Numbered from the stretch's first letter, positions 6,259 to 21,652 are shown. The stretch: 21,652 bases of DNA from a virus (IMGVR_UViG_3300023196_001802:1-21652); one strand, 5' to 3'. Made by a program: numbers and translations. The notes: generated from the letters alone by a model not told the origin.

Positions 6259-6624
6259 TTAAAACGAGTTCATTATGATTTCATCTACAGCTTCTTGTAC
6301 ATCTTTTTCTGTAGCTTCAAGTTGCATCATAATGTTTGCCTGAAAGCGGGCTTCTTCTTCCCCCTCGTTAAACACTATAATAGTCGGCACAACTACTATC
6401 TTGTGTTCTTTTTGCAGATCAGGCGATGCTGCAATGTCTATGCGATTTGTAGTACAATCGCTTATTTTGTTTATCCACGCAACAGAGTTTGCGGCATTGA
6501 AGCTCGCGTTAAACTCTACTACACAGATACCACTACTGCTTATTTCTGGAGCAGGATTGTCCGTGGCCACATACACCGCCGAGAATAATAGTAGAGATAA
6601 GGCAGCCAATAGTGCAGTTTTCAT
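6259..6624 (-). CDS. Exported thioredoxin-fold protein lacking the CXXC active site
   Basis: The product has 121 residues. Residues 1-20 (MKTALLAALSLLLFSAVYVA) form a signal peptide or membrane anchor. The rest follows the thioredoxin order: a first strand ICVVEFNASFN at 33-43, a helix with NSVAWINKI, a strand with RIDIA at 61-65, then the cis-proline loop IVVVPTIIVF at 76-85, and a C-terminal amphipathic helix. Where thioredoxins carry WCGPC, this protein reads FNAANS, so no redox cysteine pair is present; the only cysteines are C34 and C57. It is therefore unlikely to be a thiol oxidoreductase and more likely a binding or structural module, by analogy with other redox-inactive thioredoxin folds. 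It follows the membrane protein at 6633-6917 after an 8-base gap and ends an envelope-gene run. Confidence 0.78.
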   Translation of the reverse strand: MKTALLAALSLLLFSAVYVATDNPAPEISSSGICVVEFNASFNAANSVAWINKISDCTTNRIDIAASPDLQKEHKIVVVPTIIVFNEGEEEARFQANIMMQLEATEKDVQEAVDEIIMNSF

Positions 6625-6632
6625 GTCTCATG

Positions 6633-6917
6633 TTATTTAAGTTTATCGATTTTTTCTTCAATACGTTTCATGTCTTCTTTGATCTCAGTGACATCTTCCT
6701 GAGTGGTCATGATTGTTTGACGGACTAGCTGGTCCTTCATGTCAAACTCCATGCGTGTAATCTCTGGAGCCAAGGGCTCAGGCAATTCTTTTGCTTCTGC
6801 AATGTCTGCTTGTAATACAAACCACATGCTGATCAACGCCCCCAACCCCGTAGCTGCCATACCTATAGTCTTTAGGTCTAGCGTAATCTTAGTATTCTCA
6901 CCTATCTGTTTTGCCAT
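6633..6917 (-). CDS. Single-span membrane protein with C-terminal coiled coil
   Basis: The product has 94 residues. Residues about 16-38 (TIGMAATGLGALISMWFVLQ) are one hydrophobic span preceded by basic and polar residues. The following segment begins with an acidic, Pro-containing linker (EAKELPEPLAPE) and ends in a heptad-like coiled coil at about 71-94 (TTQEDVTEIKEDMKRIEEKI). I recall similar short proteins beside lysis or envelope genes in marine phages. A holin-like, spanin-like or membrane-scaffold role is possible, but none is proven, and the clearer holin candidate lies at 14220-14657. The start shares one base with the stop of the beta-barrel gene (TAATG), so the two are probably co-translated. 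Confidence 0.72.
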   Translation of the reverse strand: MAKQIGENTKITLDLKTIGMAATGLGALISMWFVLQADIAEAKELPEPLAPEITRMEFDMKDQLVRQTIMTTQEDVTEIKEDMKRIEEKIDKLK

Positions 6918-7963
6918 TATAGTAGTATGTAATTTAATCCTATAGAGAAGTCATGCCATTCTCTATTCCAGTATCTGTTATATTTACCCTCAGCAAATAT
7001 CCCAAAGTTCTTTGTAAGCTTAGTTCCAAATACAAGTCCTACCCCAAAGTCAACCCATTGGTCGCTGTTGACAAAGTTGTGGTAAGAGTATTCCCCATCT
7101 GTATTAAGATGGTACGGCATCAAGTTGCCCCAGCTATGTACCCAGAAGTCTTTGCTATAGTGGTAGAAGTCATATCCTACAACGAGGGAGTAAACCCATT
7201 GGTCTTGCAGCTCTGATCTTTTAGACGCTACGTAGTCATCTAGCACCTGAGGTATTACTACCTGCTCCCATACTGCGGGGTCATTGGCTACAAGCTCACC
7301 ATCGGGGTTAAAGAACTCACCAGTATTTACATCTATGCTGTATCCTTCTTGCAAAGCAAGTGAGGTGTAGTGTATCTGATCGTTATCAAGCACCCACTCC
7401 TGCAATGGGTCATAGCCGTATGGCTCAGAGATACGCTGCATGATTCCTGCATTGACTGAGAACTTCTTACCAATCTTAGCTCGAGCTCTTTGTGAGCCTT
7501 CGAAGTAGCTAATGTCAGCGAAACCGTCTGCAAGATATTCAGCCTTTACAACCCACCACTCATCTACATATCGTATGAAGTAATCCTGGTCTAGGAAGTT
7601 TCTTCCTTGCTGTCTTCTCCAATCTGCTTCTGCAAGGAATTCAAGTCCGTTGAACTTTCCAACGGTTGCTGCGTCCCCGTACGTTTTCTCAGTGCCATCA
7701 TAGAAAACATTAGCTCTGTTCTCATAGCCAAAACGCGCAATCTTGCGGACCCCAAGCGTAAGAGAGTAGTCAAAGGGTGTTTCAATAATCCCGGTTGTAA
7801 GTGATCCGGTACTGACAGAATATACGTCATCGTCAGATATCGAGTTGCCGCCATTAGCCGCTGCATAGAACGTTGCTCTTCTAAGCACTTTCTTGTAGAA
7901 GTCTCCTTGGGCATAGCTTGTAGTTGAAATTAAAGCTAGGAGTATAGTTAGTATATGCTTCAT
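6917..7963 (-). CDS. Phage-encoded predicted outer-membrane beta-barrel protein
   Basis: The product has 348 residues. Residues 1-18 (MKHILTILLALISTTSYA) form a clear Sec signal peptide with cleavage before QG. The mature part is rich in alternating aromatic and polar residues and glycine, as in transmembrane beta strands: FDYSLTLGVRKIARFGYENR, WWVVKAEYLADGFADISYF, WVYSLVVGYDFYHYS, WVDFGVGLVFGTKL and FGIFAEGKYNRYW. It ends in an aromatic/hydrophobic strand (FSIGLNYILL), typical of barrels recognised by the BAM complex. There are no cysteines. It overlaps the T9SS-protein gene as ATGA and the membrane-protein gene as TAATG. The likely place is the host outer membrane; possible roles are blocking superinfection or altering permeability. 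I recall relatives in marine viral sequences. The barrel call is by pattern, not structure. Confidence 0.78.
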   Translation of the reverse strand: MKHILTILLALISTTSYAQGDFYKKVLRRATFYAAANGGNSISDDDVYSVSTGSLTTGIIETPFDYSLTLGVRKIARFGYENRANVFYDGTEKTYGDAATVGKFNGLEFLAEADWRRQQGRNFLDQDYFIRYVDEWWVVKAEYLADGFADISYFEGSQRARAKIGKKFSVNAGIMQRISEPYGYDPLQEWVLDNDQIHYTSLALQEGYSIDVNTGEFFNPDGELVANDPAVWEQVVIPQVLDDYVASKRSELQDQWVYSLVVGYDFYHYSKDFWVHSWGNLMPYHLNTDGEYSYHNFVNSDQWVDFGVGLVFGTKLTKNFGIFAEGKYNRYWNREWHDFSIGLNYILL

Positions 7964-10371
7964 TGCTTTACGATTGTTTGTTTAACTACTCTTCCCTTGT
8001 AGTTGACTATAACAGTGTACACACCTGCAGCAGGCAATTCAATCTGAGAGTCAGAGCTCATTAATACCTTTTGGCCCGTAGAGTTGTACACAGTAGTCAA
8101 GGTACCCTCAGGGGCTTGTATGTTAATGTAGTCTCTGGTTGGGTTAGGGTATACTCTGACTTGGTCTACATACGACGGTACATTGGTTATCCCATCTCCG
8201 CAGTACCCGTACATTTCTACGCATACATCATCCCATCCTATTTCACAGCAGTAGGGGTCAACAGATATAACCCATGCATAGCACTGGTCATTTAACCAGT
8301 ATGGTTCTCCAGGCCCTGTAATACATCCAGCATCGTAGAAGCATTGGGTTGATGTGTTGGCCTCGCCGTCGTAGTTGTAGGCGTCTGGGTCCATACATCC
8401 TTCTAGTATGGCTATGCAGCTGTTGTTGTCTACGTTTGCTTCAGGCTCGTAGTTCAATGCGTATTGATCAGTGCACCCAAAGATTGCAAGTGTTTGACAG
8501 CTGCCGTCATCGTAATCAGCGTCAAAGCCCTGCGTGTAGTATTCTAAGTACCCTGCCTGACCACACCCAGGATTGTAGTAGCATGTACTATCCCCACTGT
8601 TAACATTAGGATTAAAGTTAAATGCTAGGCTATCTGTACATCCGTATGAGAATGGTATACAGCTGTTACCGCAGTATGGAGTTACTGAGTAGGTGTTGGG
8701 GAATGGGATCATGCTCCACTGAGGTACATTAATCAGTGTGTCCCCTGTTGGTCCTTCGAGCATGAACCCACATTGTGCTATTTGATTTTGTGACTGTGGT
8801 GTTGTAAAGAAGAATATCTCAATATCCTGCTGGGCTGACAGAACTATATCGAAGACCTCTTCGTTACCGTCATTAGGCCCCATCTGATATTGTGGGGATA
8901 GTTCACCGTTTTGGTACACACCCAACCAGCTACCAAACCATCCGTCGCCTACCCCGTCTGTAATGGTGAGGGTGTAGAAGCAGGAGTCTATGGCATTCTC
9001 TGTGTTGGCCAGAGAGTCGTAGTTAAAGTAGGAGTCGTCTGTGCACCCGTAAACTTTTAGGGTCTCACACAATAGGTCTACAGCTACAGTTGCGTCTGGG
9101 TTGTATTCTAGATAATCTGGGTTACCGCATCCTAGTATGTCTTCTATGGTTGTGCATAGTGGTGTGTTAAATGTGGAGGATGCACTGTACCCAAAGTCAG
9201 CTACAGGTAAAGACCACAGTGTGTCTTCGCACGCAGTAACCGATGCCGTCCCATCTTGACCGCCCCATTGTGATGCCCCTAATCCATCCCCATAGCTATC
9301 GTTAAGTACAATCTCTAGCTCATCACCTGTAGTAGCACAGGTAGAAAACAAGAGTGGTATCCCTACAATGTCGTCAGAGAGTTGACCTATAGATACGTCT
9401 ATGATCTCTTCGTCTGTGGTAAGGTTGTGTATGCTAAAGCTTGTTTCTCCTGGGTAGTTGTCAAGTACAAGCGTAGTGGTTATCTCTGTCTCCCAGGGCT
9501 CACATTGTATAGTAAGTCCTGTACATGATCCGTTCTCGAAATTGGCCCATGGATTCCAGTTAGATGCTTCGGGATTTGTACAGCCTGGTATTGCTCCACA
9601 CGGTAGGCAGCTCTCCCAGCAGAATGGGGGTAGAGTCATAGGCCCTTCTACATTGATGGTCCTATTTACAAATCCGTTCTCGTCAAACAAAAAACAAGGA
9701 GACTCAAGAACACCTACGGGCTGTTCCTGAACCTCCCATGCGTCTGCAGAAAACTTCCACAGGTGTTGTCCTTGTGGCATGGGGACTGTTACCTCCCACA
9801 CCCCGTCACCATCTTCATCACTCATTGCCCAGCAGTTACCACACCATCCATTTACTGAGGAGTTAACCTCTGGGATGTCTATCTCTGGTGGGTGTGGTCC
9901 ATTCAGATCTAGTCGGAAGGTTACGTCATAGACACAGTCATCGCTTTCAAAGAATGCATCGGGATTGTAGTTGTTTGCCTGTGGGTCTGCACATCCATAT
10001 GATGGTGGGGGACACGGCAGTAGATCAAAGAATACTACGAGCTGGCTAGTGTTAAAGTCGTAGTAGTAGTCATTGAGACCGCATGCATTGCTTATCCCAA
10101 TCCATCCTTCCCCAAAGTCACAGCAAATACCATCCCCGAAAGAATCATCAACTACTAGGTTGTATTCTCCTGGAGGTAGTTCTATAAGCTGTTGTACATA
10201 TTGAAAAGCTTCTGTGTATGGACCACCTGATGCAAACGTGCTATCCCCCTGTACGATTGACCATGTGGTCTCAGGTGAGTACTGGTCTGCCTGCAGCTCT
10301 AGATTAATCCAGCTCTGACCTAACAACAAGTTAGACAGTCCTATAAATAGTATGGTAAGAAAATTCTTCAT
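7960..10371 (-). CDS. Secreted Cys-repeat protein with type IX secretion (Por) sorting domain
   Basis: The product has 803 residues from the ATG at 10371, which gives a TAATG junction; an ATG two codons upstream (10377) is an alternative. Residues 1-19 (MKNFLTILFIGLSNLLLGQ) are a signal peptide. The body holds eight copies of a 'GC.D..A.NYNP.A....SC' cysteine repeat (from about residue 126 to 678) and three 'D.-GDG' motifs (VDDSFGDGICCDFGEGW, LNDSYGDGLG, ITDGVGDGWFG). A region near 150-225 resembles starch-binding-like E-set folds (NGWCGNCWAMSDEDGDGVWE), and near 707-724 there is DPYCCEIGWDDVCVEMYGYC. The last 70 residues are a classic T9SS type A sorting domain: RVYPNPTRDYINI, TVYNSTGQKVL, then AAGVYTVIV and KQTIVKQ. 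It should be exported to the outer surface by the host type IX system. Such domains are normal for Bacteroidota proteins and unusual for a phage. Confidence 0.88.
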   Translation of the reverse strand: MKNFLTILFIGLSNLLLGQSWINLELQADQYSPETTWSIVQGDSTFASGGPYTEAFQYVQQLIELPPGEYNLVVDDSFGDGICCDFGEGWIGISNACGLNDYYYDFNTSQLVVFFDLLPCPPPSYGCADPQANNYNPDAFFESDDCVYDVTFRLDLNGPHPPEIDIPEVNSSVNGWCGNCWAMSDEDGDGVWEVTVPMPQGQHLWKFSADAWEVQEQPVGVLESPCFLFDENGFVNRTINVEGPMTLPPFCWESCLPCGAIPGCTNPEASNWNPWANFENGSCTGLTIQCEPWETEITTTLVLDNYPGETSFSIHNLTTDEEIIDVSIGQLSDDIVGIPLLFSTCATTGDELEIVLNDSYGDGLGASQWGGQDGTASVTACEDTLWSLPVADFGYSASSTFNTPLCTTIEDILGCGNPDYLEYNPDATVAVDLLCETLKVYGCTDDSYFNYDSLANTENAIDSCFYTLTITDGVGDGWFGSWLGVYQNGELSPQYQMGPNDGNEEVFDIVLSAQQDIEIFFFTTPQSQNQIAQCGFMLEGPTGDTLINVPQWSMIPFPNTYSVTPYCGNSCIPFSYGCTDSLAFNFNPNVNSGDSTCYYNPGCGQAGYLEYYTQGFDADYDDGSCQTLAIFGCTDQYALNYEPEANVDNNSCIAILEGCMDPDAYNYDGEANTSTQCFYDAGCITGPGEPYWLNDQCYAWVISVDPYCCEIGWDDVCVEMYGYCGDGITNVPSYVDQVRVYPNPTRDYINIQAPEGTLTTVYNSTGQKVLMSSDSQIELPAAGVYTVIVNYKGRVVKQTIVKQ
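7963..8160 (-). other. T9SS type A C-terminal sorting domain (coding segment)
   Basis: This 66-codon segment encodes the C-terminal domain of the secreted Cys-repeat protein. Diagnostic elements in order are YPNP with following DYINI, a VYNSTGQKVL strand pair, an AAGVYTVIV strand, and a basic KGRVVKQTIVKQ end. These match the Por secretion C-terminal sorting family known from Flavobacteriia and Porphyromonas, where the domain is removed and the protein attached to the cell surface after passing the outer membrane. In the phage it predicts recognition by host PorU/PorV-type components. Confidence 0.85.
8341..9996 (-). repeat. Eight in-frame copies of a GC.D..A.NYNP.A cysteine repeat
   Basis: The encoded repeats begin at about residues 126, 263, 414, 442, 577, 602, 632 and 658 of the secreted protein. 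Clear examples are GCADPQANNYNP, GCTNPEASNWNP, GCTDSLAFNFNP, GCTDQYALNYEP and GCMDPDAYNYDG, each closed by a cysteine 18-22 residues after the first. Some copies (GCGNPDYLEYNP, GCGQAGYLEYYT) have diverged. Spacing is irregular because other domains are inserted between copies, so this is a protein-level repeat and not a tandem DNA repeat. The same unit occurs in T9SS-exported proteins of marine Bacteroidota and in the giant protein at 17018-21652. Confidence 0.75.
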
Positions 10372-10643
10372 TAGCATCTACATCTCCACTTTCTAAGTGC
10401 TTTGTTAATACGTGAGTTGGGATCTCTTTTTCCTTTAGAGCCTGTTCTTTTTGCTTTCATCCCACACATACGAGAGCAGAATGATTTACGTCTGGACTTC
10501 TTCTTACCTGTGGGGTTCTTCTCTGTAACAGCCATAGATAGTTTACTACCTGGATTGGCTTTACGATAAGAAGCAATGCCCTTTCGGTTTAGTCCTCCTG
10601 ATGGGTTCTTACCCTCTTTCCGTGTCCATGCTGCGCTTGCCAT
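10371..10643 (-). CDS. Small basic conserved marine-phage protein, 90 residues
   Basis: The product has 90 residues from the ATG at 10643. The N-terminus reads ASAAWTRKEGKNPSGGLNRK, the middle RRKSFCSRMCGMKAK, and the C-terminus DPNSRINKALRKWRC. I recognise this order (AW.RKEGKNP.GGLN, SFC.RM.GM, DP.SRINK.LR.W.C) from a widespread domain of unknown function in marine tailed phages, where it can also be fused to larger proteins. About a third of the residues are Lys or Arg and there are four cysteines. There is no signal peptide. It lies between the 84-residue gene and the T9SS-protein gene, overlapping the latter by one base. A nucleic-acid or structural role is inferred only from charge. Confidence 0.78.
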   Translation of the reverse strand: MASAAWTRKEGKNPSGGLNRKGIASYRKANPGSKLSMAVTEKNPTGKKKSRRKSFCSRMCGMKAKRTGSKGKRDPNSRINKALRKWRCRC

Positions 10644-12136: not shown

Positions 12137-12799
12137 TTAGTCTTGTTGTCTATCGTTAGTTGTATCATTAACACCCCCAGATAGGAGTGCCAGTTCGCCT
12201 GCTGCCATTCCGGCTGTTATAGCAGACACCATATCCATGGGGAGTGGGAAGTCAGAGTATTCATCATAACAATTCCCATCATTACATGTGGCAAAGTTTG
12301 ATACACTTTCAGGGTCTTCGAATACCCCCCTAATATTAATTGCCTCTAACCCCTTAGGTTCGTACACGTAAATATACTCATCAATGATGTAATATTTAGT
12401 ATGCCTAGAAGTATATTTATCGTACGGAAGAAACTCTATCTCGTAGGCTTCTATCTTAGGTATAGTACCTGTTCCATTGGGTTTACCTATGAAGGTAAAT
12501 GCATCAGATAAGTTGAACCTTACAGTCTTAGGTAACTTTCGTTTGGTCCTGTAGACTGGACAGTCCTGTGGGAGATTGCAGCACTTACTTGCGTCAACAC
12601 GTTCTAGATCTATACACCCCAAGTCTTGCTCAAGGTGATTAGAGACATAGCCATTTCTAGCATAGTCTCTACGTATGAACATAGCACGATAGTGCTTTAT
12701 GTTGAACTTTATCTGTTCGATAGATATAAGCTCGTCGTTGCTAGACCTACCCCCTCGGAGTAGATTTAGAATGTTGTATGCAATCTCATCTAGGGTCAT
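12137..12799 (-). CDS. crAss-like head-tail adaptor/ring-type virion protein
   Basis: The product has 220 residues. The N-terminus (TLDEIAYNILNLLRGGRSSN, followed by ISIEQIKFNIKHYRAMFIRR) is a pattern I recall from the conserved adaptor or ring protein of crAss-like phages, where an all-helical N-terminal region packs under the portal. A middle beta region follows (PKTVRFNLSDAFTFIGK, YYIIDEYIYVYEPKGLEAIN, IRGVFEDPE). The end has PLPMDMVSAITAGMAAGELA, a helix typical of such connectors. A Cys group CCNLPQDC occurs near residues 73-80. There is no signal peptide. The ATGA overlap with the small acidic gene upstream implies co-translation. The family call is moderately firm; the precise ring position is not assignable. 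Confidence 0.8.
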   Translation of the reverse strand: MTLDEIAYNILNLLRGGRSSNDELISIEQIKFNIKHYRAMFIRRDYARNGYVSNHLEQDLGCIDLERVDASKCCNLPQDCPVYRTKRKLPKTVRFNLSDAFTFIGKPNGTGTIPKIEAYEIEFLPYDKYTSRHTKYYIIDEYIYVYEPKGLEAINIRGVFEDPESVSNFATCNDGNCYDEYSDFPLPMDMVSAITAGMAAGELALLSGGVNDTTNDRQQD

Positions 12800-13080
12800 T
12801 GATGCTTTTCTTTCGCACTGATCAGCTCAGCACACTTTTCGTATTCTTCGTTCTCTTCAAAGTACTTTATTATATCGTCAATGACCATCCTGAATGTCTC
12901 AGGAGCAGAAGGATCGAAGGGTAGGAATATCATGTCCGGGCTCTTGGATAGGAGCTCAGTCACAGATACTCTACCTGTGGCGATAGCATACGCATTGCGA
13001 TATGCCTCGTCTAAGATCTCAATCTCCTCTTCTACGGAGGAGACGAAATCGTCATCATCTATGTCGTCAAATTCTAACAT
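12796..13080 (-). CDS. Small acidic conserved phage protein, 94 residues
   Basis: I place the start at the ATG at 13080, giving 94 residues and a 14-base overlap with the metallophosphoesterase gene. A longer open frame reaches back to 13227, but it would overlap the conserved C-terminus of that enzyme by 161 bases and its extra N-terminus looks like shadow sequence. The protein begins MLEFDDIDDDDFVSSVEEEI, very acidic, and ends with FLPFDPSAPETFRMVIDDII followed by a helix EYEKCAELI. I recall the latter arrangement in short uncharacterised proteins of Bacteroidota phages. It is predicted helical and soluble. Its function is unknown; it sits directly before the adaptor-type gene and shares an ATGA with it. 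Confidence 0.72.
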   Translation of the reverse strand: MLEFDDIDDDDFVSSVEEEIEILDEAYRNAYAIATGRVSVTELLSKSPDMIFLPFDPSAPETFRMVIDDIIKYFEENEEYEKCAELISAKEKHQ

Positions 13081-14203
13081 TTGTCTGTAAATAGCCTTCA
13101 AGTCCTTTGAACTTATTCCATATATATGCTTGCCCTGTTCGTTTAGCCTCATACCCCATCTGCTTGTGCCATTCATCGTTAGGACAAATAGATGGTATGA
13201 AGCGTACTTTGATACCTCTGTACTCATTCACCATTTCTTTGTGAAGATGCCCACAGTGTACTTCACGATGTGATGTACGCGCAAACATTTCTGGGTTTTC
13301 AGTCGCCATAATGAGTGGCATGTCTGCAGGCTTCTCCTTGTCGCCGTGAGTAAACATCAACATGTTCTTGCCGTACTCGTAGTACTTGCGAGAACTGTAG
13401 CTGTTATCCACAGTAACATCGGCATCATTCCTGTACCATCCTGCGAGCACATCTCCTGCATAGAACATGCGCTCGTAATCGTGGTTACCTGATATGACAA
13501 TGATATCTACAGGAGCCTTCTCTTTCAAGAAGTCTATTGCTGTAGTCATCAGTTGCCAGTATCCTCTGAAAGTATCCTTCCACCCTCCGGAGTCCTGTTG
13601 TGGAGTCCCTTTGGTGGTGGTACCTCTCATACCCTCTGAGTTCATTCCGTCGTTGCCGACTGGGAGTATGAACCTTTCTATCTCAAGTCCTGATGCCTTG
13701 CGTACTAGATCTTGCACGGCCATCATGTATTCGTCTTCAACCTGTGTTAGGCTCAAGTCATGAAGTTTGCCGTAGTGAATGTCCGGTAGTGATATCTCAT
13801 ATGCTACAGGATTAATGATTGGTTTACGAAGCTTCCTAGGAGCACTGGGGCTATAGGTTGCTGCGAATTGTTCAATCTCTTGTTTAATGGATTCAACACT
13901 CATTGACTCTCCCTTAGTAACGACAGAGAATCTCTGCTGTCCAGACACTGTCTGCCAGAACTTTACGCTAGATACATCAGACTGGCTGATGCCGTTTTTG
14001 TCAAGGAACTGTTCGAATTCATTAATAACGTTATCGCTATCGTTATCGTTGTCTTCTGTGTTACGAGCCAGCTTTCTGGCTTCGTAGAGTGCTGTCTCAC
14101 AATCTTCAATCGGGCAATTAAGTCTCTCAGATAGTACGTCAGCGCTCTTTTTAAGATATCCTGCCTTTTCGGACAGGAAATCTTTGATTTCATTTACGGT
14201 CAT
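13067..14203 (-). CDS. Calcineurin-like metallophosphoesterase
   Basis: The product has 378 residues. Residues 1-125 are a helical N-terminal region unrelated to the catalytic core. The core carries the ordered metal-binding motifs of the calcineurin-like family: DIH at 141-143, VGNDGMN at 182-188, SGNHDYER at 238-245, THGD at 285-288 and CGHLH at 317-321. A TTTKGTPQQD segment at 195-204 is seen in phage members of the family. This should be a dimetal phosphoesterase or nuclease; the substrate cannot be read from sequence. There is no signal peptide. It lies in the virion/lysis block between the holin-like gene and the adaptor-type gene, with a 16-base gap upstream. Roles in DNA processing or host nucleotide control are possible. 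Confidence 0.88.
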   Translation of the reverse strand: MTVNEIKDFLSEKAGYLKKSADVLSERLNCPIEDCETALYEARKLARNTEDNDNDSDNVINEFEQFLDKNGISQSDVSSVKFWQTVSGQQRFSVVTKGESMSVESIKQEIEQFAATYSPSAPRKLRKPIINPVAYEISLPDIHYGKLHDLSLTQVEDEYMMAVQDLVRKASGLEIERFILPVGNDGMNSEGMRGTTTKGTPQQDSGGWKDTFRGYWQLMTTAIDFLKEKAPVDIIVISGNHDYERMFYAGDVLAGWYRNDADVTVDNSYSSRKYYEYGKNMLMFTHGDKEKPADMPLIMATENPEMFARTSHREVHCGHLHKEMVNEYRGIKVRFIPSICPNDEWHKQMGYEAKRTGQAYIWNKFKGLEGYLQTNVRI

Positions 14204-14219: not shown

Positions 14220-14657
14220 TTACTTTTTAGCTTTTTCTATAGTCCTACCTGCGAAGTATGCACCGAATGCTGTGAGCATCAGTATCTCCAACAGAGACAC
14301 ATAGGAGTCTTTTACATTGAAAGGCCACCCGTCCATACTATCTGCTACCATGGTGCCTACAAACATGACCATGAGAGCTATAAGTGTGACCGGTCTAATG
14401 AGCTTAGCGAGTTTGACGTCGCTTCCCATATCAGCCTTCCAACGCTCAGTAACGTTATTTTGGAATGCTATCTCAGCATCAATTTTAGCCTTTGCTTCGG
14501 CTGGGTCAACATTTGGATCGTTATCCAAGAGGTTCTTTACGACACCCAAAGCCCCTTTGTCGGGGAGAAGGTCACCCACTGTACCAAGTACATTAGGTGC
14601 CTTTTCCGCCAACCATTTGCCAAGGAGGGTATCTTTTATTTTCTTACGATCAGCCAT
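14220..14657 (-). CDS. Holin-like membrane protein (GTA/3TM-type)
   Basis: The product has 145 residues from the ATG at 14657, which gives a TGATG junction with the preceding gene; a GTG one codon upstream is a less likely alternative. The N-terminal region is soluble and helical (LLGKWLAEKAPNVLGTVGDL, then LPDKGALG and an acidic FQNNVTERWKADM stretch). Two membrane spans follow at about 88-107 (RPVTLIALMVMFVGTMVADS) and 119-138 (YVSLLEILMLTAFGAYFAGR), ending in a short basic tail. A helical N-terminal arm, an R-P before the first span and an 'AYF.GR..EK' end match the gene-transfer-agent holin family. It would form lesions in the host inner membrane to start lysis. I see no endolysin in the window. 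Confidence 0.8.
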   Translation of the reverse strand: MADRKKIKDTLLGKWLAEKAPNVLGTVGDLLPDKGALGVVKNLLDNDPNVDPAEAKAKIDAEIAFQNNVTERWKADMGSDVKLAKLIRPVTLIALMVMFVGTMVADSMDGWPFNVKDSYVSLLEILMLTAFGAYFAGRTIEKAKK

Positions 14658-15058
14658 CACGTGCTTTCCTTAGATGCGAAATACTCTACTTTAACACCAG
14701 TTGAGGCGTCGTTTGAGTATATCATAATATCAGTACTTCCACTGTTTACGTACCAAGGGAAAATAGTGTATCCATTGGGCTTAAGCTTAAACGCAATCTG
14801 GCTCCCTATCTTAATGTACAAGAACTTATTAGCCGTACCAGTGAGGTTTTTGATAAACATAAAGACTGTTTCATCGCCAGTACTGTGGTAATCAGTAGCA
14901 TCTATAAGAGTTGCAGGTGCACCGGAAGCTTCTTTAATCGTTCTTACTCGCCTATCTGCGTCTTGACCAACAGATGTTACTTTGTCGTAACGACCAGTAA
15001 TTCCATTGGTGAATAGGTTTTTAGACCGTATACTAAGTCTTGTAACTATTGAGGGCAT
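14657..15058 (-). CDS. Small beta-rich virion-type protein (paralogue of the 5841-6230 product)
   Basis: The product has 133 residues, starting at ATG 15058 (TAATG). Its second half (VFMFIKNLTGTANKFLYIKI, then IAFKLKPNGYTIFPWYVNSG and VKVEYFAS) shows the same order of strands and the same 'KL.P...T.FP' core as the 129-residue protein at 5841-6230. The N-terminal half is basic (RLSIRSKNLFTNGITGRYDK). There are no cysteines, signal peptide or membrane span. It lies between a helical protein and the holin-like gene. By analogy it could be a head-decoration or tail-accessory protein. Having two diverged copies at the two ends of the cluster suggests separate virion positions. Confidence 0.73.
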   Translation of the reverse strand: MPSIVTRLSIRSKNLFTNGITGRYDKVTSVGQDADRRVRTIKEASGAPATLIDATDYHSTGDETVFMFIKNLTGTANKFLYIKIGSQIAFKLKPNGYTIFPWYVNSGSTDIMIYSNDASTGVKVEYFASKEST

Positions 15059-17017: not shown

Positions 17018-20000
17018 TTAGAATAGTTTTATTTCATTCCCGTTTTCATCTACAAGACCTGAAGTTTGATTAACTGTAGGTTGCCTTGATTTTTGTTTTG
17101 CGGGGGTTATTCTCTGAGCTGGGTCTGAGTAGATAGAACATTGTTCACAGTACTTAGTCATAAACTCAAAGAACGTGTATACGTAAGGTCTCTCTTGTCC
17201 TGCTGGGGCCATCTTGCCCCTTGTATCGATACATGGTGCCCACTTAGACACATTTATGTTTGATATAGTAGAATCCGGTCTTACATCTCCTGCAGATACA
17301 TTGTTTACAGCTCTGTAGTACCTCTTCTTTCTAACTCCGACTTCGTTGTAAATAATTGCAACAACAGTGCCTTTTGCATAAGTACTCGTTGGTGTCCATA
17401 TCTGCTTGTTTCCTCTCTTCCAATTATCTACGCAGGATATCTTGTTGATGCCCTTTGCCAGTGCTTTTGGATCACGAGTGTCATCGCAGCTGTTGATACA
17501 TGTAAGGTTGATGGAGTTGTTAAACAAGTAGTTTATCATCTCAAGCTTAATCAGATCCGTACGATCGTACTTTACACCGGACCTCATCTTAAACAAAAGC
17601 TTGCTTCCCTCATTTGCGGAACATGTCATAGCTGCCCGCTGTACTTCTGCAAACGATCCACTCTGTCCTAGATTAGGCTCACAGTATACTTCCTGGATGA
17701 TTTCCACCTCCTCGATATCCACGACTGGATCACCACCGCCGTCATCACCAAATCCTTCTGGGCAGTTTCCAAGAATAACACATTCTGCTACAGGTGGTCC
17801 ACCGCAGTCTCCGTTAGGACAGGGATCAACAGGGGGCTCTGAGCATAGAGGGTTGTTGGGATCGGGACACTCTGGTATTTCGCAGTCCGGAATTACATTT
17901 CCATCTTGGTCTTCGCACTCATCGTCCGTGACATCGTCAGAGCAGTCCTCCAAACCATCACAGCAGTATTCACATCTGCTAGACAAACAAGTATCTACCG
18001 TAGGGTCGTAGTTGCAAGCTAGTAGGTCACAACACCCTTCAGTACTGTCGTTGAAATCATCACAATCTCTAAACGTAACCAAACCTGACGCAGCAGCGCT
18101 CTCACAATCCTCACATCCAACTTCATCTTCTCCTTGGTCGCAAGGATCATTATCAGCATAGTTGCACGTTCCATCATTGTAGTCTGCAAGTGGGTTGTAG
18201 TTTTGTGCATTCTCATCAGTGCAGCCACCTACAATGTCCGGACAATCTTCTGGGTTAGCCTGATCGTTACATGGTGTTGGACAATCAGTATAATCGACGG
18301 TTGATCCAACAACTACTTGATCAATGGCATCGAAGTTATCTATAAATCCTACTCCTGAACAACTTTCATCTAGTACTGCTTGATAGTTGTTGACCATCAT
18401 GACCACATACTGACCAGCAGCCAATACACCTCCTGTATTAAGAATTGGATCTCCAAGAGCACTGAAGCCCATCAACAATCCCAATGGTCCTACTGTACCT
18501 GGAGCAACGATTGGCTCTGTGCGATTTGTATTGAATGCGTTCGCACTGTTTTCAACCAAGTTAAGTATATTGCCTATGGCAGCTCCTGTATTTCCGTTCA
18601 CTACGGCAAATACACCCATTACGAATGTGCCTGTTACCTCCCCTCCACTAACGGTTCCGTCAAAGCTATCTACCGTAATAGCTCCAGAGGCACTATCCAG
18701 TAGAGTGTTTATAGTATCACCACCACCTAAGTCTGTTTCTACACACTGTATCCTAGTATTTGCAGTAGTTACTGCCCCAATCTTACCGTCTAGGTATACG
18801 TTATCACAGTCTATATAGTTACAACAACCTGTGTTGTTAACTGTAACACCGTCACTGCATTCGCCGTCACTGGTGTTATCACAAGCGCAGTCGAAGTTTA
18901 TAGCAGCTGGGTCAAGACACCCAAAAATTGTTTCTGGACATTCAGTCTCACCATTGACACTAGCAGTTATTCCCGCGCCTCCAATAAGTATGGGTTCACA
19001 GACTATAGAGTTTCCTGCAGCATCTACTTGGAAACTAAACTGGTTGGTTTGTGCTATGTAAACAAAGTACTCCCCTGCCCCAACTATGTCAAGGACAATA
19101 TGCAGCGGGCTGTCAGCAACGTTGTACGGATCGACCCCGTAGCTCTCGTAGTCGGCTACTGATGCAATTTCTATTATCTCATCTGCATTACTGTTGAGAA
19201 GACTTATAGTGGGGTTATTTATTACACCTTCTATTACATATATATTAAATGTAAAGAGCTCTGTACCCAAAACGAACTGGTACTGGTCTCCATCTGCATT
19301 GTTTGTGTACGCCCCAAACACATCTATTTCTATGGTACCTGATATTGTTGAGGTTGTTTCCCCCTCATTAGGTATACAATCAAAGGATGTAGTATGAACA
19401 CAAGCGTCTATGAAACTGTCGCAGCTAAACTCTGGTGGTATAGGTGCACAGAATCCATTGTCATCGGTTGTTTTCTTTTTTATTCTCCGTGACTGAGCCT
19501 GGCCCGTATTACAAGCTCCAATGCTTGTATACCCCGCAGGGAATGGAATTGACCCACTCCATGGGTAATCAAAGAACTTACCTGCATAGGTCGGTGAGTT
19601 TATTATATCACACCCACAAATCAGATTCCAGAAGTTAAACGAGAAGGCGTAGGATCTTCGGCAGTCTCCCAGAGCAGGACTAGTCAATCCTGCTAGAAGG
19701 GCTGAAACATCGAGTCTCAGTACAGCTACATAATGCTTACCTGCTTGTAAGTATGTCTGACTGTGGGGGTCATTGAGTATATCTACAGTGTTAAAGTTAA
19801 ACGTATTGGCATTATCTGAAGTCCCATTTGCCTCAATCGTGTAACTAGCAAACTTGGGTTCCAGGGCCGTGCCCTGATTTGTCATGGTGCCTATAGGGCT
19901 ACCTGTAACTGGAGTACTCTCTCCTGCGTAATTACCAACCGTATCTTCCCATTGATCGTAATTCCAACCCAGAGCTGTTCCATCCCATTGTTCTATGTTG

Positions 20001-21652
20001 TATATGTCTAGGCTCCATGCTAGTGGCTCTAGATCTGAGGTCTGGTTTGTTATAAGCCCACCTATAGCCCCCATACTACCAACAGATACTGTATGCTCAA
20101 ATTTAAATTGAGTGTATATAGCGGCAGGGTCTATAGAAAGGGCATCCCAAGCAGCCCCGAAGGGTAATACAATTCCCTCAACGTCTGCACTATAAGTTAC
20201 TGCAGCATTTAGAGATGGCCCCCAGTGGTTAAATGCATTACCTATCTGACCTTGATTCCAAGTTCCTTCTTGGTAATCGGTATCATTGTACCAAGGACCC
20301 ATGTCAAATGGGGCATCAGCACTTGTAATAGCAGCCAGTGGTCCTATTGAAGCGTTTTCGTAATCTCCAAGCAGGGGCTCCACGTCCGGGGCCAATGTTC
20401 CAGCTAGATCATCAGGTTCACACGTTACGCATGTATCATTATCTACTGTAGCTATGGGATCGTAGTTAAGAGAATTCTCATCTGTGCATCCTGCTACGTC
20501 CTCACCCCCGCCCCCTCCAGGTACTACTTGTGCTCCGAGTGTTACAAACTCAAAAACTTCACCCATCTTAAACTCATTACCTGCCTTGTTGACGGCACTC
20601 TCAAGTCCCATCTGTACGGTAGTAGTGTTTTTGTTTTTAGGGGTTACGTATATCTCCGAATGCCTCGTTGGCTCTTCACCTCCGTCTGTTAAATATTCGT
20701 TGTCGTGGGAGTTTGCTTCACTGTTTGCATCTATCCCATACCCACTACTGTCAAATATTTGTCTGCTGTCCCAGTTGAAATTTGATGAGTTTACATCAAC
20801 GTAGGGTCTGTCAAGTGCTTGTGATCCACTGGCTGTAAGCAGCAGTGTGAGCTTTTGAGTTCCATTTGCCTGAGTGAAAGTTCCATTCCCCAAAAAAGTA
20901 GTTGTGGAAGTGTTGGGTGAGAATGTATTGCCTGCTCCTTCTGCGTCACCTGCTTGAGGAGCAGACAGTGTTGGGAATGAATTCTCTGTGTAGAAGCTAT
21001 CATCAAAGTGATTTCTACCAGGAGTGTACTTGTAAGCAAATACATCTGAAGCATCAGTCACAGATAAAGCATCGGTGCTTGTAGAGGCTTCGTAGTTTGC
21101 AACGCTATTATTGCACCCACAATCCCATGTCTGAGCGAAATTTGAGCTCTGGAGTCCATTTTCTGCTGCACCCCCAGGGACAGTCTGGGTGGCTATAGCG
21201 GTATCGCTAAAGGCTAAGCCTACGCCATCTGCTTCAGTAAATATAGTGGATGGCGGAATCACTTCCTCACTGAAGCCATAAGGGTAGAAATACTCAAATT
21301 TAACCTCCGAGACAATTTCAGTCGTGCTAGTAACTTGTGGATCTATCAGCATCCTTAGCCTTGTTGCTGTAAACGAAGAAGGGTCCATTCGTTTAATTGG
21401 CTGCATGCAACCTCTTAAGTAAGCTTTCCTGCGAGAACCTGAATATTCGTGTGCCCTTGATCCGTTTGTTAAGATACCTAGAGCATCGTTGTATGATATT
21501 CGCTCAAACTCAGATAGGTTATTAAAAGGTTGTGTCCAGGCTGCGGAAACGGATGAACCACCGGTCCCTATGGTATCCTGCAGACATCCTGTCGATTTCT
21601 GACCTAGAGGAAGAACCTCAATTTGATTGAATTCGTTGGTATCAGACAAAGC
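17018..21652 (-). CDS. Giant Cys-rich, multidomain presumptive virion protein (5' end outside window)
   Basis: The open frame continues to the right edge of the window, so the true start is probably outside. A TTG at 21649 is the only in-window candidate near the edge, and counting from it gives 1543 residues. The frame ends with TAA one base before the fibre-like gene. There are Ser/Thr/Asn-rich beta domains throughout. Repeats of the 'GC.D..A.NY.P.A' type occur near 387 (GCTDENSLNYDP), 910 (GCLDPAAINFDC) and 1142 (GCTDENAQNYNP). A dense cysteine/aspartate linker spans about 1120-1330. The C-terminal 220 residues are different, basic and aromatic (LLFKMRSGVKYDRTDLIKLE), and may be the virion-attachment end. 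Size, position and linkage to fibre genes suggest a tail spike or appendage. It is not clear whether it is exported, since the N-terminus is missing. Confidence 0.75.
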   Translation of the reverse strand, partial: ALSDTNEFNQIEVLPLGQKSTGCLQDTIGTGGSSVSAAWTQPFNNLSEFERISYNDALGILTNGSRAHEYSGSRRKAYLRGCMQPIKRMDPSSFTATRLRMLIDPQVTSTTEIVSEVKFEYFYPYGFSEEVIPPSTIFTEADGVGLAFSDTAIATQTVPGGAAENGLQSSNFAQTWDCGCNNSVANYEASTSTDALSVTDASDVFAYKYTPGRNHFDDSFYTENSFPTLSAPQAGDAEGAGNTFSPNTSTTTFLGNGTFTQANGTQKLTLLLTASGSQALDRPYVDVNSSNFNWDSRQIFDSSGYGIDANSEANSHDNEYLTDGGEEPTRHSEIYVTPKNKNTTTVQMGLESAVNKAGNEFKMGEVFEFVTLGAQVVPGGGGGEDVAGCTDENSLNYDPIATVDNDTCVTCEPDDLAGTLAPDVEPLLGDYENASIGPLAAITSADAPFDMGPWYNDTDYQEGTWNQGQIGNAFNHWGPSLNAAVTYSADVEGIVLPFGAAWDALSIDPAAIYTQFKFEHTVSVGSMGAIGGLITNQTSDLEPLAWSLDIYNIEQWDGTALGWNYDQWEDTVGNYAGESTPVTGSPIGTMTNQGTALEPKFASYTIEANGTSDNANTFNFNTVDILNDPHSQTYLQAGKHYVAVLRLDVSALLAGLTSPALGDCRRSYAFSFNFWNLICGCDIINSPTYAGKFFDYPWSGSIPFPAGYTSIGACNTGQAQSRRIKKKTTDDNGFCAPIPPEFSCDSFIDACVHTTSFDCIPNEGETTSTISGTIEIDVFGAYTNNADGDQYQFVLGTELFTFNIYVIEGVINNPTISLLNSNADEIIEIASVADYESYGVDPYNVADSPLHIVLDIVGAGEYFVYIAQTNQFSFQVDAAGNSIVCEPILIGGAGITASVNGETECPETIFGCLDPAAINFDCACDNTSDGECSDGVTVNNTGCCNYIDCDNVYLDGKIGAVTTANTRIQCVETDLGGGDTINTLLDSASGAITVDSFDGTVSGGEVTGTFVMGVFAVVNGNTGAAIGNILNLVENSANAFNTNRTEPIVAPGTVGPLGLLMGFSALGDPILNTGGVLAAGQYVVMMVNNYQAVLDESCSGVGFIDNFDAIDQVVVGSTVDYTDCPTPCNDQANPEDCPDIVGGCTDENAQNYNPLADYNDGTCNYADNDPCDQGEDEVGCEDCESAAASGLVTFRDCDDFNDSTEGCCDLLACNYDPTVDTCLSSRCEYCCDGLEDCSDDVTDDECEDQDGNVIPDCEIPECPDPNNPLCSEPPVDPCPNGDCGGPPVAECVILGNCPEGFGDDGGGDPVVDIEEVEIIQEVYCEPNLGQSGSFAEVQRAAMTCSANEGSKLLFKMRSGVKYDRTDLIKLEMINYLFNNSINLTCINSCDDTRDPKALAKGINKISCVDNWKRGNKQIWTPTSTYAKGTVVAIIYNEVGVRKKRYYRAVNNVSAGDVRPDSTISNINVSKWAPCIDTRGKMAPAGQERPYVYTFFEFMTKYCEQCSIYSDPAQRITPAKQKSRQPTVNQTSGLVDENGNEIKLF

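Follow-up and report, generated by a model that had tools for sequence, protein, structure and literature searches.

A lysis-linked four-gene envelope cassette with a predicted type IX secretion cargo in uncultured phages

Introduction

What use would a phage have for a protein addressed to the type IX secretion system (T9SS) of its host? The question is raised by a gene of a marine phage, in the first 21,652 bases (the window, i.e. the whole stretch of DNA analysed here) of the 45,412-bp IMG/VR record IMGVR_UViG_3300023196_001802. A previous reading of the window from its sequence alone (the sequence-only reading) had placed this gene in a virion/lysis operon and proposed that its product, acting alone, coats the infected cell or serves as an adhesin. 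The gene is one of four, encoding the T9SS cargo, an outer-membrane beta-barrel, a 94-residue membrane protein (TM94) and a secreted thioredoxin-like (Trx-like) protein, which form an envelope-spanning cassette linked to lysis genes.

Phage-encoded T9SS cargo is already known in principle. Bellas et al. 2020 (PMC7468147) proposed that 'Cryophage' genes with T9SS sorting domains encode cargo for the host system, and T9SS-domain proteins were noted near crAss-BACON open reading frames (ORFs) (PMC6949934). The Cryophage cargo is set apart by its description in that source (an endoglucanase, one GH39 and one PA14 protein, all encoded in variable islands), and neither a conserved four-gene cassette nor a lysis link is described in the available parts of either paper. 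Searches of open-access PMC papers turned up no account of such a conserved cassette, of how widely it occurs or of its lysis linkage.

Results

The cargo gene and its sorting domain

The cassette occupies the following positions in the window (aa, amino acids; CTD, C-terminal sorting domain):

10371..7960, minus strand: T9SS cargo gene, 803 aa, starting MKNFLTILFIGLSNLLLGQS (ORF; TIGR04183 over cut-off; AlphaFold model)
10312..10371, minus strand: predicted Sec signal peptide, residues ~1-20 (rule-based test)
9592..9930, minus strand: carbohydrate-binding-like domain (FRLDLNG...), residues ~148-260, inferred limits (homologous domain in Flavobacteriales; fold match)
7963..8154, minus strand: T9SS type A CTD (TIGR04183; profile match to solved CTDs; fold match 8glk_D)
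6917..7963, minus strand: outer-membrane beta-barrel, 348 aa, with signal peptide, directly downstream of the cargo gene (AlphaFold model; fold matches; signal-peptide rule)
6633..6917, minus strand: TM94, 94 aa, one N-terminal membrane segment and an acidic, probably coiled tail (alignment A3; charge asymmetry)
6259..6624, minus strand: secreted Trx-like protein, 121 aa, without redox motif (profile matches; signal-peptide rule)

The 803-residue ORF of the sequence-only reading is real (an alternative upstream in-frame ATG at 10377 would give 805 aa), and its complete sorting domain was borne out by three lines of comparison. The search with sorting-domain profiles which that reading had suggested gave an end-to-end TIGR04183 match on residues 742-805 (E 6.6e-7, 29.2 bits against a cut-off of 23), and 33.3 bits (E 2.1e-9) in a six-frame search of the genome; PF18962 also matched end to end, at 25.4 bits, slightly below its gathering score of 27. 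A profile built from 31 CTDs of related phages matched T9SS CTDs in the PDB, the best being that of lipase 7pzj (E 1e-13), with 8glk, 8glj, mirolase 8qb1 and gingipains 5hfs and 5ag9. In the AlphaFold model of the whole cargo, the C-terminus forms a seven-strand sandwich (pLDDT ~71-87), and Foldseek matched the model to 8glk_D, the CTD of NucA as bound within the T9SS translocon (TMt 0.75, root-mean-square deviation 2.2 Å, 75 columns).

The domain recurs in related phages. In a first set of 32 records, TIGR04183 was above cut-off in 29, which are all those holding the 3' end of the gene, the other 3 contigs ending inside it; in a wider set, the CTD was present in 48/49 records, 46 of them above cut-off. 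A chance match was ruled out by this recurrence in both sets together with the PDB profile matches and the fold match. PNP, G, Y and K positions are invariant among the related phage CTDs and G65 is nearly so; the ratio of non-synonymous to synonymous substitution (dN/dS) was below 1 in 142/142 pairs (median 0.21). The CTD is under purifying selection.

Signal peptides and topology were judged throughout by simple rules. The Sec signal peptide of the sequence-only reading was upheld on this basis: of the distinct members of the cargo family, 84/92 have a signal-peptide-like N-terminus, as compared with 8% among other phage ORFs. The cargo thus resembles T9SS type A cargo (TIGR04183/PF18962; e.g. 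the CTDs of gingipains, NucA and mirolase) in having both a signal peptide and a C-terminal sorting domain by hidden Markov model, motifs and fold, and differs from it in being phage-encoded and part of a lysis-linked cassette. Sequence and model together predict that this phage-encoded product is addressed to a T9SS and exported.

Between its two ends, the cargo holds beta domains with DxxGDG motifs, the carbohydrate-binding-like domain and paired-Cys GCTDxxAxNYxxxAN repeats, whose number varies. A homologous domain of ~112 aa is found in Flavobacteriales chromosomal proteins, often in tandem and with 40-50% identity, and the cargo model matches AMPK glycogen-binding domains (TMt ~0.7), a match that may be placed at residues ~148-260; the Flavobacteriales domain is the probable sequence counterpart of this AMPK-like fold region. 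The cargo looks like a protein built from host surface-protein parts. Second, more distant cargo homologues lie some kb from the cassette at L025:17743-19800, L028:19434-22202 and L030:11451-14108 (L and G numbers denote loci and records).

The three partner genes

The AlphaFold model of the barrel has ~12 barrel strands and moderate confidence (pLDDT 69.8). Its top PDB fold matches in Foldseek are outer-membrane barrels, the nearest being NanC-like porins and autotransporter barrels, and 97/102 distinct members have a signal-peptide-like N-terminus. An outer-membrane barrel encoded beside a T9SS cargo gene recalls the PorP/SprF and PorV barrels, from which this one differs by lacking an NCBIfam or Pfam match to those families; a partner of PorP/SprF or PorV type was ruled out, with no NCBIfam match at E 0.1 and no such Pfam match. 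By far the best BFVD match to the model was A0A516LKJ4, a viral protein of 342 aa that has no name (E 1.8e-20, 21% identity); UniProt thus holds a diverged relative.

TM94 is strongly conserved (81% mean column identity in alignment A3) and had no match in a PDB search. Its topology was derived from hydropathy and charge only (charge asymmetry around the membrane segment, -0.6 against -4.6), and its coil was judged by eye. The family profile of the Trx-like protein matches PDB thioredoxins at E 4e-5, with a sub-threshold single-sequence Pfam match (20.6 against 23.5 bits). To this sequence-profile likeness to thioredoxins is opposed the lack of CxxC: the redox-active [WFY]CxxC was absent from 113/113 distinct members. 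A signal-peptide-like N-terminus was found in 98/109.

Distribution of the cassette

Co-occurrence was counted in the 74 distinct IMG/VR loci where the barrel gene has 3.5 kb or more of sequence to either side. TM94 and the Trx-like gene were present in all 74, a cargo with CTD in 73, and all four genes together in 73/74; confirmed IMG/VR matches exceeded 560 each for the barrel and TM94. The orders vary (cargo-barrel-TM94-Trx, TM94-Trx-cargo-barrel, barrel-TM94-Trx-cargo) and the set stays together. The barrel, TM94 and Trx-like genes occur with no adjoining T9SS cargo at L163:4900-6657 and L193:9989-11698. There are hints that these three genes are a core to which the cargo is an addition.

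The record encodes a terminase, a portal, a DNA polymerase and a major capsid protein (phrog_11589, E 1e-83), and is considered a phage because of its terminase, portal and capsid genes. Its terminase is 40-44% identical, and its capsid 27-32% identical, to those of crAss-like phages; by the shared major capsid protein and large terminase, it is a crAss-like phage (Crassvirales relative). Among 49 records searched, the phrog_6547 portal was found in 41 and the crAss capsid family in 9; a T4-like portal (E 1.4e-68 or better) was found in five other records (those of L030, L031, L035, L100 and L102). Judged from these marker genes, the cassette is present in both crAss-like phages and T4-like myoviruses. 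In a tree of barrel, TM94 and Trx-like sequences, the T4-like cassettes form one clade together with a single crAss-like cassette (L107), which makes one or more transfers between the phage classes likely.

The nearest named relatives by portal are elemo, Calle, phi38:1, phi13:2, Gundel and Panino. Tblastn searches of INPHARED, with the window's four cassette proteins as queries and with three divergent ones, gave no convincing cassette match, one search returning chance-level matches only, and so revealed no cultured carrier of the cassette. Cassette profiles found no gene in the profiled stretches of MW202828, elemoE, phi38:1, phi13:2 and Gundel, and TIGR04183 was absent from the tested stretches of these five and from Panino.

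That the cargo is a phage gene and not host DNA at a contig join, as the sequence-only reading had held, was sustained: phage genes lie on both sides, and the context is repeated in relatives. A host origin of the whole cassette was also rejected, given a pattern search through 84,980 species genomes that found the barrel in 4 contigs only, all in metagenome-assembled genomes (MAGs), and TM94 in 1/298 genomes of the order of one such MAG, on the same phage-like contig. The contigs of L191, L193 and L194, which carry cassette genes, belong to MAGs that bear the labels Nitrosopelagicus and Woesearchaeota; they are probably of phage origin and were binned with archaea. The carrier phages probably infect T9SS-bearing Bacteroidota. 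SprA was found in 52/60 genomes of the order of a MAG holding one cassette contig, an order that may not be that of the host of the window's phage.

Linkage to lysis genes

To assess linkage, 18 large phage records were searched whole with profiles. In 13/18 the cassette has a gene for a holin, endolysin or amidase within 113 bp, where random placement would be expected to give 0.6 (naive P 2e-16). The arrangements are several (holin-cargo...Trx-endolysin in G051 and G052; endolysin-cargo...Trx-holin in G039; TM94...barrel-holin in G026 and G031; amidase-cargo...Trx-holin in G045; holin-cargo... in G048, G013, G057 and G004; ...cargo-holin in G054; holin-barrel..., without cargo, in G072; ...Trx-amidase in G044), and adjacency is seen in both crAss-like and T4-like phages. 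The putative holin family with two membrane segments was called from size and hydropathy, with no database match. The cassette is lysis-linked. Around L025, L028 and L192, the surroundings read as DNA-metabolism genes and not as virion genes.

In the window, the lysis gene of the same late block is the following:

14220..14660, minus strand: holin, 146 aa (phrog_3427, E 6e-21; of a family that lies right beside the cassette in many relatives)

The 'virion/lysis operon' of the sequence-only reading therefore stands in part: the holin is in the block, and an amidase gene is far off (record position 37783-38202). The overlapping neighbours it had described are present: the cargo gene shares ATGA with the next gene at 7960-7963 and overlaps the gene at 10371-10643, and a TAATG junction joins the barrel and TM94 genes at 6917.

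Other genes of the window and of relatives

The product of the gene at 10371-10643 is basic, 90 aa long and contains DUF6321 (Pfam E 1e-18), a domain also found in several PHROG families of far longer phage proteins. Two minus-strand ORFs, 12796-13227 and 13067-14203, share 161 bases in different frames, an overlap also seen in L023; the latter ORF weakly matches metallophosphatases. The GCTDxxAxNYxxxA...C repeats of the cargo are also present in a 2,338-aa late protein (window 17018-21649, the gene continuing to record position 24034), in which no sorting domain was found; one phage thus has repeats of this type in two of its proteins. Some relatives have, near the cassette, genes for signal-peptide-bearing metallopeptidases of M43 type (pappalysin/cytophagalysin-like), at L116:7583-9343 (minus strand), in L028 (a 669-aa gene) and in record G026 at 25512-29755 (minus strand); one 669-aa M43-type member has a C-terminal end resembling a T9SS CTD.

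Discussion

A trans-envelope lysis module as the preferred explanation

Computation placed the four genes and the CTD of the cargo, gave the predicted locations of the products, and established their linkage to one another and to lysis genes. The succession of predicted layers (inner membrane, periplasm, outer membrane, surface), with the genes beside holin and endolysin, suggests a trans-envelope lysis device. The explanation to which we give the most weight, with a probability of roughly 0.45, is that the cassette is a lysis-linked trans-envelope module disrupting the outer membrane in a spanin-like manner, the cargo being its surface component. Late in infection, each of the four products would take up its own envelope layer: TM94 the inner membrane, its tail reaching into the periplasm; the Trx-like protein the periplasm; the barrel the outer membrane; and the cargo the cell surface, to which its sorting domain would bring it through the host T9SS. 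They would then assemble across the envelope and, after holin and endolysin had removed the inner barrier and the wall, disrupt the outer membrane, doing the job of a spanin without an o-spanin lipoprotein.

The cassette resembles the two-component spanins (Rz/Rz1) in its linkage to holin and endolysin (13/18 records; not adjacent in the window). TM94 may also share the i-spanin topology, its hydropathy and charge suggesting a short N-terminal anchor and a periplasmic tail. Where the two-component spanins have an o-spanin lipoprotein, the cassette has instead the surface cargo, the barrel and the Trx-like protein; the o-spanin lipobox is absent from nearly all Trx-like members. A lipobox scan found none in the window's cassette proteins and, among the 18 records, one only in the Trx-like protein of G051 and G052. 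Kongari et al. (PMC6139136) listed spanin-less phages, including phages on Bacteroides and Croceibacter, and suggested an outer-membrane protein as a possible o-spanin; a 2025 survey (PMC12596118) found only unimolecular spanins in phages of Bacteroidota.

Several observations weigh against a spanin-like role. No cassette protein is related to any known spanin. The scan found no candidate o-spanin in 10/18 records, and likewise none in several cultured relatives that have no cassette; since such relatives also lack lipobox genes, o-spanin absence does not discriminate, and the absence of a lipobox was dropped as positive evidence of spanin replacement. The naive P value is too small because the 18 records are related, and in 5/18, including the window's own phage, the lysis genes found are 3.8 to 34 kb from the cassette. 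At L163, the barrel, TM94 and Trx-like genes stand beside a holin without cargo, and the cargo may thus be accessory.

Alternative explanations

A strong rival is surface coating or superinfection exclusion, although we hold it to be less likely: by means of the carbohydrate-binding-like domain, the cargo and the barrel would cover or disguise the infected cell, and afterwards what is left of it, excluding other phages or stopping re-adsorption of the progeny, and the lysis linkage would reflect shared late expression only. A surface-addressed cargo with a carbohydrate-binding-like fold match and a varying number of paired-Cys repeats is in keeping with it, and a similar role is proposed for other phage T9SS cargo in PMC7468147. 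Such a coat leaves unexplained, however, the near-invariant TM94 and Trx-like partners and the repeated holin/endolysin adjacency amid shuffled orders in different phage classes. The cargo acting alone as coat or adhesin, as first proposed, was not retained: its gene is accompanied by three more for the envelope and, in unrelated phages, is linked to those for holin and endolysin, which points to lysis first.

A control of lysis timing similar to T4 lysis inhibition, in which the surface and outer-membrane parts would sense the outside (e.g. a superinfecting phage) and signal to the holin via the Trx-like protein and TM94, agrees with the trans-envelope topology and with the directly adjacent holins; it is improbable, as no relation to T4 RI or RIII was seen and a barrel is less needed. 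We also give little credence to auxiliary or host-fitness genes carried by the phage (nutrient capture, particle attachment), in spite of the carbohydrate-binding-like domain of the cargo and the M43-type metallopeptidases that some relatives carry nearby, since auxiliary genes are usually sporadic whereas this cassette is near-invariant over very many contigs and tied to lysis genes. That the four genes encode virion parts with fortuitous signal sequences, as their place among structural genes in the window's late block might suggest, is very improbable given signal peptides in ~90% of members of three families against a background of 8%, a conserved CTD under selection, and T4-like relatives having the cassette among other genes, with holin and endolysin.

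Significance

The spanin-like module would, in its fullest form, be a four-part, lipoprotein-free, trans-envelope machine for outer-membrane lysis with a T9SS-delivered outermost part, seen so far only in uncultured phages, which belong to two or more unrelated lineages; we put this forward tentatively, as possible but short of an even chance. Outer-membrane breakage by phages of Bacteroidota is poorly known, and the cassette is a concrete candidate for it, found in hundreds of viral contigs. The data suggest that phages use a host export machine when breaking the cell open. If this is true, the host T9SS would count among the factors of phage lysis, and a gene set that is common in environmental viromes, and unannotated there, would gain meaning.

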